DNA of 64,000 nt from a bacterium. GTDB taxonomy: Bacteria > Actinomycetota > Acidimicrobiia > Spongiisociales > Spongiisociaceae. A model generated the notes under the pieces. That model ran no database searches. It saw only the letters and a list, made by a program, of their open reading frames with translations, and was not told the DNA's origin. Positions 7,761 through 63,494 of this stretch are shown one piece after another (the stretch's first letter is position 1; each line of letters opens with the position of its first letter). The DNA is taken from NCBI GenBank assembly GCA_028821575.1, contig JAPPFW010000052.1, positions 59,149 through 123,148 of the forward strand, in the 5' to 3' direction. The position numbers and the translations under genes are program-made.

Positions 7761-8884
7761 ACGGCGGCCACGCGGTCACCTACCGGCGCCATGCCACCGA
7801 CGGCCCGGCCCGGGCGGGGCTGCTGACCACTCCCCACGGGGCGGTCGAGACACCTGCCTTCATGCCGGTCGGCACCAGGGGGGTGGTGCGCGGCCTCGAC
7901 TCCCGCGACCTGCGCGAGGTCGGCTCGAAGATGGTTCTGGCCAATACCTACCACCTCATGCTGCGGCCCGGGGCCGGCCTCATCTCGCGCCTGGGCGGTC
8001 TGCACCGGTTCATGGGCTGGGACGGCCCCATCCTCACCGACTCGGGTGGCTACCAGGTGTTCTCCCTCGACGCCCGGGTAAGCGAGGCAGGATGCCGGTT
8101 CCGGTCCGTGTACGACGGCTCAGAGGCCTTCCTTTCCCCGGAGGACGCGGTGCGGGTGCAGGAACAGCTCGGTCCCGACATCGCCATGGTGCTGGATGTC
8201 TGCATCGCACTGCCGGCGCCCAGGGAGGACGCGGTCGAGGCGATGGAACGGACGCTGCGGTGGGCGGAGCGGGCGGTTGCGGCTCATGATCGGACCGACC
8301 AGGCGCTGTTCGGGATCGTGCAGGGAGGAGTCGATCCCGATCTTCGGTTGGAGAGCGCCCGCCGGACCGCAGAGTTGGGCATGGCCGGCTACGGGATCGG
8401 GGGGTTGTCGGTCGGGGAGGAGAGAGGCCCACGCAACGATGCCTTGGAGGCCGCCGTGGCCGGGCTTCCTGACGGGGCGCCCCGTTACTTCATGGGTCTC
8501 GGGGATCCGGAGGGGCTCCTGGACGCGGTGGCGAGGGGAGTGGATCTGTTCGACTGCGTGTGGCCCACCCGCCTCGCCCGGCACGGCAAGGTCATCAGCG
8601 GGCAGGGTGACTACAACATCCGCCTGGCGCGCTTCACCAACGACGAAGCACCGCTCGATCCGCAATGCCCTTGCATGACGTGCTGCACCTACCCGCGCGC
8701 CTATTTGAGGCACCTGGCCGTGACCAAGGAGTTGTCCCTGCCGAGGCTGCTTTCCATCCACAACCTCGTCTTCACCCACCGCCTGCTCGAAGGAGCCCGC
8801 TCAGCCATAGTGGCCGGCACGTTCGCCGAATTCCGCCATCGGGTCACAGACAATCGCCACCATCTGGTTGCTGGTGATTGGTGA
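7757..8884 (+). CDS. tgt: tRNA-guanine transglycosylase
   Basis: Exchanges G34 of target tRNAs for preQ1, the step before QueA. The active-site segment [11 protein letters not shown], the nucleophile region [13 protein letters not shown] and the zinc site CPCMTC with a downstream His ([14 protein letters not shown]) are present. The GTG start is embedded in the queA stop; the upstream part of the 589-aa ORF is an out-of-gene extension. The last codons (LVAGDW) are written in the heptad-repeat array that follows, so the tail sequence is probably a by-product of the repeat rather than conserved protein. Confidence 0.95.
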
Positions 8885-8942
8885 TTCGTGGTTCGTGATG
8901 TGTTCCACCATCCACCATCCACCATCCACTAGCCACCAACCC
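8866..8942. repeat. heptad repeat array A (tgt 3' end / yajC upstream)
   Basis: Eleven consecutive 7-bp units: GGTTGCT, GGTGATT twice, CGTGGTT, CGTGATG, TGTTCCA, CCATCCA three times, CTAGCCA, CCAACCC. The left half is TGGT-type and the right half CCA-type, so the array is partly self-complementary. The tgt stop codon lies inside it. A TACCAT hexamer (8949-8954) follows after six bases and may be the yajC-secDF promoter -10 box. Confidence 0.85.
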
Positions 8943-9031
8943 ACCGACTACCATCGGGGTACCCGTCGCCGAGGCGGGTCGGTCCGTACCCGGAGGGGCC
9001 CGAAACAGGCCCGATAGGAGAATGTGACGTC

Positions 9032-9346
9032 GTGCCGGTGTCTTTGATTGCCCAGGCCGAGGGAGGCGACAGTTTCAGCTTCCTGCTGCCCCTGTTGCTC
9101 CTCGGAGCTCTCATGTACTTCCTGATCATCCGCCCGCAGCGAAAGAGGATGCGCCGCCAGCGTGAACTCTCGGCGGCGCTGGAGATCGGGGACCAGGTCA
9201 GGACGATTGGGGGATTGTTCGGGGTGGTGGTCGGGCTTGGTGACGATTGGGTGGTCCTCGGTGTCGAGGACGGGCGGATACGGGTGCAGAAGAGCGCCAT
9301 CGCCGGTCGCGCCGGACCTGACAACCCGTCCGATACCGGGTCGTAA
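9032..9346 (+). CDS. yajC: preprotein translocase accessory subunit YajC
   Basis: Small membrane partner of SecDF in the Sec translocon. One membrane segment (FSFLLPLLLLGALMYFLII) is followed by the invariant RPQRKR motif, and the C-terminal domain (GDQVRTIGGLFGVVVGL) matches the family. 104 residues. GTG start, with AGGAG about 11 bases upstream and a second in-frame GTG two codons later. Followed seven bases later by secD. Confidence 0.93.
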   Translation: MPVSLIAQAEGGDSFSFLLPLLLLGALMYFLIIRPQRKRMRRQRELSAALEIGDQVRTIGGLFGVVVGLGDDWVVLGVEDGRIRVQKSAIAGRAGPDNPSDTGS

Positions 9347-9352
9347 CCCGGC

Positions 9353-61602: not shown

Positions 61603-62877
61603 ATGAGTGCCGATCAATCCAAGAGTCCGGAGCAGCAGGCCGAGGAACTCCTACACGATGTGGACACCTGCCTGCCTGAGGGCGAGCTGGTCGAGCGTCT
61701 GCGGGAATGCGAGCAGGAAGGCCGCCAACTCCGGGTCAAGCTCGGGCTTGACCCGACGGCCAATGTCGTGACGCTCGGTTGGGCGGTCGTTCTCTGGAAG
61801 CTTCGTCAGTTCCAGGACCTCGGACACAAAGCGGTGCTCATCCTGGGAACCTTCACTGCGCAGGTTGGTGACCCGAGTGGGCAGTCCGAGACAAGGAAGC
61901 GTCTCACCGCGGCGCAGGTCGAGATGTTCGCCAACTCGGTAAAGAGGCACTTCGGGAAGATTCTCTCTACCGATGAGGAGAAACTGGAGATCCGACCCAA
62001 CCATGAGTGGCTGGGCTCGCTCAACATGCGCGAAGTGCTGGAACTTACTTCGTCGACGACACTGGCTCAGATGCTGGAGCGGGACGACTTCTCCAAACGG
62101 TTCGCCCACCGCCGCCCCATATCCATGACGGAGTTCATGTATCCGCTGCTCCAGGGCTACGACTCGGTTGCTGTCGAGGCCGACATTGAGCTGGGCGGGA
62201 CCGATCAGCTGTTCAACCTGATGATGGGCCGCCAAGTGCAGCAACGCTATGGCCAGACACCGCAGATGGTGCTGACCATGCCGCTTCTCGTGGGGACGGA
62301 CGGTAAGAAGAAGATGTCGCAGTCCCTTGGCAACTACATCAGTATCTCCGAGCCCTACGAAGAGATGTTCGGCAAGACGATGAGCATCCCGGATGCCGCG
62401 ATGCCTCAGTGGTTCAGACTCGCTTCCGGTCTACCGAGAACCGAGGTTGACGAAGTATTGGCCGGTCTAGCGGACGGCACCTTACATCCGGGCAAGGAGA
62501 AACGCCGTCTGGCCCGCGCAGTGGTCGATCGTTACCTGAATGGCTACGGCGAGGTCGCCGAGCAGGCTTTTGATCGGCAATTCCTGTTGCGCGAGGTCCC
62601 GGACGACATCCCAACCCATCCGCTCCCATCCGGCGATCCTGAGACCGCCGTGGTGTACCTTCCTGCGCTACTGGCCGATGCGGGCCTAGTGGCTTCGAAA
62701 AGCGAGGGACGGCGGATGCTGGCTCAGGGGGCGGTTCGCATCGATGGCAAGCGGGAGACCCGCCAAAGGGTCACGAAACTCGAACTCCTCTCCGGGATTG
62801 ATCGCAAAGTTATCTCAGTCGGTAAGCGGCGCTTTGTCCGGCTGGGTGATAGCCCGCTTCAACAGCCGAGGGCGTAG
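61603..62877 (+). CDS. tyrS: tyrosyl-tRNA synthetase with altered signature motifs
   Basis: Class I synthetase fold, 424 residues, TyrZ-like layout. RVKLGLDPTANVVTLGW shows TLGW (residues 57-60) where HLGH (HIGH motif) is expected. GTFTAQVGDPSG has Thr83 where Asp is usual. The KMSKS loop is KMSQS (237-241). The tyrosine pocket (LLQGYDSVAVEADIELGGTDQLFN) and the C-terminal S4 RNA-binding domain (LLADAGLVASKSEGRRMLAQGAVRIDGK) look normal. Its place after mpg is the conserved tyrS site in mycobacteria, arguing that it is the ordinary gene, yet both ATP-binding histidines are lost. It may be a specialised or impaired paralogue if another tyrS exists elsewhere. Confidence 0.85.
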   Translation: MSADQSKSPEQQAEELLHDVDTCLPEGELVERLRECEQEGRQLRVKLGLDPTANVVTLGWAVVLWKLRQFQDLGHKAVLILGTFTAQVGDPSGQSETRKRLTAAQVEMFANSVKRHFGKILSTDEEKLEIRPNHEWLGSLNMREVLELTSSTTLAQMLERDDFSKRFAHRRPISMTEFMYPLLQGYDSVAVEADIELGGTDQLFNLMMGRQVQQRYGQTPQMVLTMPLLVGTDGKKKMSQSLGNYISISEPYEEMFGKTMSIPDAAMPQWFRLASGLPRTEVDEVLAGLADGTLHPGKEKRRLARAVVDRYLNGYGEVAEQAFDRQFLLREVPDDIPTHPLPSGDPETAVVYLPALLADAGLVASKSEGRRMLAQGAVRIDGKRETRQRVTKLELLSGIDRKVISVGKRRFVRLGDSPLQQPRA

Positions 62878-63179
62878 CGGACCGCTTGGCACACGGTCTG
62901 CATCGTGGCGTGATCCAATGCTCAGATGGGGCCGGTGAGCGATGACTGGCGGACAGTATGGAGGCCGTCGTAGTTAAAGGCGGAAGGACGGTCGAGCCCG
63001 ACCCGTCGGTGGTTGAGGTGGGCCTCGGCGGCAAGACCCCGGATTGAGGTGGTCACCTCCGCCACCGTGACCAGGCTCCGCAATTCAATGACCTCTGGAC
63101 GGGTGAGGATCAGTACGGGCCGGATCTTGCCACCTACCCCGGCCAGCCAGATCTCACCGCGGGTCACGCTTCTCCCCAT
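62859..63179 (-). pseudogene. MazF/PemK-type toxin interrupted by an in-frame TGA
   Basis: The ORF track lists 85 residues (RGEIWLAGVGGKIRPVLILTR ... NYDGLHTVRQSSLTGPI) ending at TGA 62922-62924. Reading on in the same frame gives ALDHATMQTVCQAVRYALGC and then a normal TGA at 62859-62861, which is exactly a MazF C-terminus. A single base change (for example CGA to TGA) has therefore split the toxin, or the base is a sequencing error. The 3' end overlaps tyrS tail-to-tail by 19 bases. Loss of the last helix would probably inactivate the toxin. Confidence 0.85.
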
Positions 63180-63373
63180 GCTTCCGCTTCGTCCCAGAAC
63201 GGGTCGGCCTGCTCGGGGTTTCGCCGGTACGCGTCCCGGTCGGCCTGAATCAACGCGTCGCGGACTGCGGCTCTAACACCTCGACGCGCCGCCGCAGAGA
63301 TGTTGATGTTCAAGCTACGAGCTTGCTCGGCCAGTTGCTTGTCCAAAGTGAAGTTCATTCGAGTAGTAGCCAT
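63164..63373 (-). CDS. CcdA-like antitoxin
   Basis: 69 residues: an N-terminal ribbon-helix-helix-like part (RMNFTLDKQLAEQARSLNINISAAARRGVRAAV) and a C-terminal acidic, Trp-containing tail (NPEQADPFWDEAEAWGEA) as in CcdA/MazE-type antitoxins. Its end overlaps the start of the toxin gene by 16 bases, the normal antitoxin-first order. It appears intact although its toxin is interrupted. ATG at 63373. Confidence 0.82.
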   Translation of the reverse strand: MATTRMNFTLDKQLAEQARSLNINISAAARRGVRAAVRDALIQADRDAYRRNPEQADPFWDEAEAWGEA

Positions 63374-63445
63374 CGCAACATGCTATCACCTCATGAGGAC
63401 TATCGGTATAGATTCTGCCGGGAGTGGACGACGTGTGGTCGGCGT

Positions 63446-63494
63446 TCACAAGCCACAAGCCACAAGCCACAAGCCACAAGCCACAAGCCACAAT
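63446..63494. repeat. heptad repeat array K (upstream of the rRNA operon)
   Basis: Seven units: TCACAAG, CCACAAG five times, CCACAAT. It shares its unit with array H 13 kb away. A TATAGT hexamer begins 30 bases after it. Confidence 0.93.

Follow-up and report, generated by a model that had tools for sequence, protein, structure and literature searches.

Heptamer repeats have, to our knowledge, been described in scattered bacteria ever since the short tandemly repeated repetitive (STRR) sequences of cyanobacteria, and we know of no mechanism that would account for either their 7-nt step or their placement. Extragenic dyads, often located 3′ of genes, are formed by repetitive extragenic palindromes and bacterial interspersed mosaic elements (REP/BIME). 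Here we describe the period-7 tandem arrays in a 64,000-nt stretch of DNA (the window), positions 59,149 to 123,148 of the forward strand of JAPPFW010000052.1 in assembly GCA_028821575.1. The window is part of contig C55 of a metagenome-assembled genome (MAG) of 4.14 Mb in 100 contigs (G000), which belongs to an uncultured actinobacterium of the class Acidimicrobiia. The closest named relatives by RelA protein are Acidimicrobiia MAGs (77-87% identity), the isolate names of which suggest sponge-associated samples. The arrays are a variant of heptamer repeats known from other bacteria, with a placement nearly identical to that in Xanthomonas. What is new is that they follow a grammar: they lie at gene 3′ ends, are few in divergent gaps, form inverted pairs and keep one polarity per genome.

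The closest described counterparts are the GGGAATC and GGGGA(C/T)T heptamers of Xanthomonas and Nostoc (Rehm et al. 2015), intergenic period-7 repeats of no known function that are G-rich on the coding strand, lie at most 50 bp downstream of open reading frames (ORFs), overlap stop codons and retain their sites while varying in length; Xanthomonas has 70-75 inverted pairs per genome and few heptamers between divergent genes (PMC4692102). The arrays described here likewise have a coding-strand G-rich arm by the stop codon, occur as inverted pairs and are few in divergent gaps, with the arms reversed in two sister families (f7 and f8). Unlike the single G-quadruplex (G4)-forming unit per genome of Xanthomonas and Nostoc, however, tens of degenerate units are used here, and a canonical three-tetrad G4 motif is present in just 3 of 107 arrays; the host is an uncultured actinobacterial order, and the polarity is reversed between families. 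In marine Beggiatoaceae, the TAACTGA direct repeats (MacGregor 2015) consist of one heptamer found mostly just upstream of start codons, with related heptamers seldom repeated and a single indirect repeat (PMC4679880). The present arrays resemble these in being intergenic, genome-wide, of period 7 and patchy among relatives, but they employ many units, prefer gene 3′ ends and form inverted pairs, so that neither their units nor their positions are those of the TAACTGA repeats.

As described in PMC4679880, Mrazek (2007) found heptamers to be the most frequent long simple-sequence class in most of the genomes surveyed, with three Actinobacteria among the ten genomes that have the most 5-11 nt repeats, and slippage together with a 7-nt polymerase contact has been proposed for heptamer STRRs and long simple-sequence repeats (LSSRs). 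The present arrays are head-to-tail 7-nt units above chance expectation and are mostly non-coding, as is characteristic of this class, and as short tandem heptamers in gaps they resemble the STRRs of heterocystous cyanobacteria (Calothrix); the paired inverted layout and the genome-wide polarity set them apart from STRRs and LSSRs as portrayed in that source. A preliminary description of the window had made the cyanobacterial comparison, which was apt but incomplete, as heptamers have also been reported in Actinobacteria and in Xanthomonas and Nostoc. Like REP/BIME, the arrays form extragenic dyads, often downstream of genes, but no Y1 (REP-associated tyrosine, RAYT) transposase was found in any of 59 relatives, there is no fixed palindrome, and the arms are tandem heptads. 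A literature search combining Acidimicrobiia with intergenic tandem repeats found no report in the library consulted.

An array was called where lag-7 identity reached at least 15 of 21 positions. The window contains 12 such arrays, one of them intragenic (24789-24820), compared with a mean of 0.135 and a maximum of 3 when its intergenic sequence was shuffled 200 times (Markov-1). Across 463 kb of the genome, 44 of 48 lag-7 arrays are intergenic for the greater part; controls gave 0.4 such arrays, and lags other than multiples of seven gave 0-2. The genome-scale counts come from about 1.25 of the 4.14 Mb, where intergenic-majority arrays number 97 at lag 7, 71 at lag 14 and 42 at lag 21, with 0-5 at every other lag from 3 to 20; arrays are held by 87 of the 630 gaps of at least 40 bp, and extrapolation gives about 350 arrays per genome. 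The unit CCACAAG alone has 218 overlapping 19-mer matches genome-wide (at most 2 mismatches), compared with 9 for a reversed control. Given the excess over shuffled sequence and the 1.25 Mb counts, the arrays are neither a product of chance nor restricted to one contig, the two outcomes that the preliminary description had named as refuting its claim. Genes were called by a home-made codon-usage script, which leaves gene starts and the smallest ORFs approximate. The array lengths given are minimum values, since N runs interrupt some arrays and some contigs end at them. N runs with an array on both flanks occur at L012:13531-13630 and in G021 at C4 ~48594-48693, pointing to long arrays as places where scaffolds break, with array lengths underestimated.

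Eleven of the twelve arrays listed in the preliminary description were recovered in place, with lag-7 identities from 29/49 (19901-19956) to 72/77 (50242-50325), and Tandem Repeats Finder (TRF) independently called most of the listed arrays at period 7, 14 or 21; the remaining one, 34539-34552, comprises two 7-mers identical at 5 of 7 positions and is not supported. The family and its period had been correctly recognised, whereas the inverted-pair architecture and the polarity had been overlooked. The proposed CCAnnnn/TGGTnnn theme does not cover every unit, exceptions being those at 19901 (TAGTCCC/TAGTTGC) and 30698 (CTGACAC). Placement between transcription units was right as far as intergenic location goes, although the arrays at 8866, 52921 and 61511 overlap ORF 3′ ends. 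The occupied gaps, which include convergent as well as same-strand ones, may lie between transcription units.

Among the 132 array edges that face the 3′ end of a gene, 63 overlap that end or lie within 10 nt of it; the median distance is 16.5 nt, as against 63.5 nt to gene starts. Arrays occupy 26 of 101 convergent, 52 of 394 same-direction and 9 of 135 divergent gaps in the 1.25 Mb (convergent versus divergent, p=7e-5). Often a gap holds two arrays that form an inverted, complementary (mirror-image) pair. Over 107 arrays of G000, the keto (G+T) skew on the + strand declines with array position in the gap (rho=-0.62, p=7e-13), and of the adjacent arrays in a gap, 13 follow the order GT then CA and none the order CA then GT. 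Because this layout is a dyad, the polarity is identical read on either strand, regardless of gene directions. The opposite polarity is seen in families f7 (G020) and f8 (G021) (rho=+0.75 and +0.52), where the order is CA then GT in 6:0 and 7:0 cases, respectively. The polarity and complementarity analyses draw on 20 adjacent pairs in G000 and 26 in G020 and G021. Earlier duplex permutation tests were weak (p 0.02-0.12), but a profile-based test with more sequence was clearer, in that adjacent arrays fit the inverse of their own-gap partner better than same-polarity arrays elsewhere (combined p=6e-8, which includes just two pairs from G014); G021 and G020 are each significant singly. The best stems have 20-28 paired bases, for example 23/23 in G021 and 24/28 in contig C90 of G000.

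The unit vocabulary is both shared and diverse. The ACCACTG class occurs in 11 gaps and AAGCCAC in 8 (null maximum 4), 37 unit classes are found among 78 gap-unit combinations, and the units resemble one another more than random units do (mean cyclic distance 2.47 versus 3.05). Runs are homogeneous within an arm, as in G021, where one arm has CCCCAGT and the other CTCCAGT. CAAGAG/CTCTTG is frequent at an edge of the G021 arrays (L129-L138), and unrelated units adjoin there in one 7-nt register, such as CCTCCCG followed by CAAGAGT at C4 74172-74245.

Among relatives, arrays are found patchily across families of the order. Five consecutive copies of CCAN4 were matched in 12 of 14 sampled genus and family members (1 to 265 matches each), in 30 of the 59 relatives and, phylum-wide, in 44 of 397 genomes, counts that underestimate lineages using non-CCA units. 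Units vary by lineage and include CCAATTG, CCAGAGG, CCAGCAA, CCATGAG and CCCAAGA. The genus-mate G001 has 3 matches to the pattern and 11 to its reversed control, which also has period 7; 248 kb of this genome contained no intergenic lag-7 array. At the tgt-yajC gap only G000 has an array, into which tgt extends at its 3′ end; the downstream leader is alignable to G001, where a short hairpin (GGTCGTGG...CCACGGACC) stands at that place without heptads. The presence of arrays in G000 and their near or complete absence in G001, with a heptad-free hairpin at an orthologous site, thus imply fast gain and loss. At the rarA-alaS gap, arrays with other units are present in L139, L141, L144 and L145 and absent from L140, L142, L143 and L152, all family members. 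Sites can therefore outlast a change of unit, a point that the preliminary description had put up for testing, although this holds only sometimes, and arrays are gained and lost between species. In G247, from a different class (50% GC, L153-L163), 217 kb contain 30 lag-7 arrays with units CCATCAG/CCATCTG versus at most 8 at non-multiple lags, a raw excess with no gene-relative positions, as gene calling failed there.

For the observed combination of period, position, inverted pairing, polarity, lineage-specific units, patchy presence and MutS absence, the explanation we favour, and to which we give about an even chance, is that these are intergenic heptad-class simple-sequence arrays (LSSR/STRR-like) grown by slippage on gene-end dyads in a MutS-less order. 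The array sites would be inverted repeats, chiefly at gene 3′ ends, with one array on each of two complementary arms, and the arrays would lengthen and shorten by 7-nt steps through local slippage. Mirror copying between the arms, followed by separate homogenisation of each, would allow the units to drift under a constant period and register. The dyads may owe their persistence to gene-end hairpins being tolerated or of some mild use, at 3′ transcript ends or in separating convergent genes, or they may be neutral; any role as 3′ hairpins is putative. MutS is absent from 57 of 59 relatives and NucS is present in 56 of 59, and mismatch repair by NucS does not correct indels (PMC8228993), so that mutations in repeat length are likelier to persist. 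Repair genes were rejected as a cause of the differences in array number, MutS being absent and NucS present nearly everywhere. MutS-family ATPase domains occur in two genomes of this otherwise MutS-free order, at G005:C325:2164-2721 and G018:C57:22997-24987, which have few arrays (1 and 15 pattern matches).

Several observations weigh against slippage on gene-end dyads. MutS is missing from array-free relatives too, and since these share the same repair background, its absence can be no more than permissive. From slippage alone one would expect neither inverted pairs nor a single polarity per genome, nor one unit at many loci, as with the class found in 11 gaps. Abrupt in-register switches such as CCTCCCG to CAAGAGT in G021 need more than point drift, and own-gap complementarity falls short of significance when G000 is taken by itself (p=0.11). 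Even with the dyads included, neither the step of seven nor the one polarity per genome is accounted for. In place of generic slippage, a dedicated process might write 7-nt units on both dyad arms with lineage-fixed polarity, for example hairpin-templated copying from arm to arm or a protein reading the 7-nt step, which we regard as quite unlikely; if true, it would give a bacterial gene-boundary mark with drifting sequence and kept geometry.

The dyads might instead be selected RNA elements, 3′ hairpins that terminate transcription (on both sides in convergent gaps) or shield mRNA 3′ ends, with the heptads in the stems incidental. The 3′-end position, the enrichment in convergent gaps and the complementary arms with stems of 20-28 pairs would all suit such a function, and convergent gaps with arrays out-fold their shuffles (mean z -1.57, n=12) compared with -0.02 for divergent gaps. 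However, same-direction gaps fold alike with or without arrays (mean z -0.36 versus -0.38), no U-tract is evident in the folds as judged by eye, many arrays have no detectable partner, and close relatives manage without arrays; an excess of G.U over A.C (37:15) is a hint at most, with a per-dyad sign test of p=0.12. We consider selected RNA elements possible but rather unlikely. General stability of RNA in 3′ regions was rejected, with no overall excess in folding. The single polarity per genome, the reuse of units at many loci and the rarA-alaS site conserved in five genomes could also point to a DNA- or RNA-binding protein that reads period and sequence, the arrays being gene-boundary or regulatory sites and the polarity its orientation. 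The units, however, are too diverse for one recognition sequence, the polarity flips in sister families, the genus-mate G001 is nearly array-free, and no candidate was found in searches that covered Y1, NucS and MutS, which makes such a protein very unlikely. Of the two mechanisms in the preliminary description, repeated local expansion gains from the homogeneous runs per array and from presence and absence between relatives; a period-reading protein or RNA would be hypothetical.

Distribution by a mobile element family, REP/BIME or similar to miniature inverted-repeat transposable elements (MITEs), could explain one unit at many unlinked loci and the BIME-like inverted-pair form, but we deem it highly improbable, since the transposase search was negative with positive controls working and the array flanks lack conserved ends or a core, their k-mers mostly mirroring the units. 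Least credible is that the arrays work through G-quadruplexes or i-motifs, as proposed for the Xanthomonas and Nostoc heptamers: a two-tetrad G motif occurs on one strand in 79 of 107 arrays and the similar Xanthomonas grammar has G4-forming units (PMC4692102), but the three-tetrad motif is rare, as noted above, and units without G-tracts (TAGTTGT, CTGACAC) occupy the same kinds of places. Because a placement near that of Xanthomonas occurs here with degenerate units that form no classical quadruplex, the common cause of heptamer placement is probably not G4 formation but may be the dyad. Any explanation has to accommodate the lineage-specific polarity, which is newly described here, and comparing array-rich with array-free relatives, which share one repair background with no MutS and with NucS present, offers a way to test how the step arose.

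The arrays of the window are collected in Table 1; Rfam models gave no match within it.

Table 1 Heptad arrays in the window and their position relative to genes.
Positions	Strand	Feature and units	Lag-7 identity	Remarks
8862..8944	+	Dyad at tgt end (ORF 7757-8884); GT-rich GGTGATT, CGTGGTT across stop codon, then in-register CA-rich CCATCCA	50/70	Stem on folding; none at orthologous gap in any relative checked
14785..14820	+	CA-rich array CCACTGA in gap between relA and metallo-beta-lactamase-fold gene	18/21	Gap array-free in closest relatives
19907..19947	+	GT-type array TAGTCCC / TAGTTGC immediately 3′ of rarA (mgsA) stop (gene end 19898)	29/49	
20797..20845	+	Weak mixed array GGACCAC, TGACCAC	22/35	
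30697..30757	+	CA-rich array CTGACAC / CTGTCAC upstream of chorismate synthase (30831-31982, Pfam)	40/49	
34937..35010	+	Array shifting from GT-type TTGTCCG to CA-type CCACTGA heptads	38/63	
50237..50337	+	Longest array, 12 CA-rich units CCACAAG / CCACATG	72/77	Stops 1-2 nt short of called peptide deformylase start (50339-50836, Pfam)
52920..52964	+	GT arm TAGTGGT over stop codon of ORF 51741-52937, first arm of dyad	25/35	Keto skew 0.57
53008..53043	+	CA arm CCAGCCA, second arm in same gap, before ORF 53054-53746	17/21	Keto skew -0.57; 15/18 positions pair with 52920..52964
61516..61560	+	GT-type array CAGTGGT over end of 3-methyladenine DNA glycosylase gene (60994-61536, Pfam)	30/42	
63439..63500	+	CA-rich array CCACAAG x6-7, near-perfect	40/42	TRF 100% matches, 6.7 copies

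A degenerate 21-bp tandem repeat of 5.6 copies, CCTTGATATCGGATCGCACGT, lies at 34708-34825 of the window, inside a small minus-strand ORF that adjoins a heptad array.

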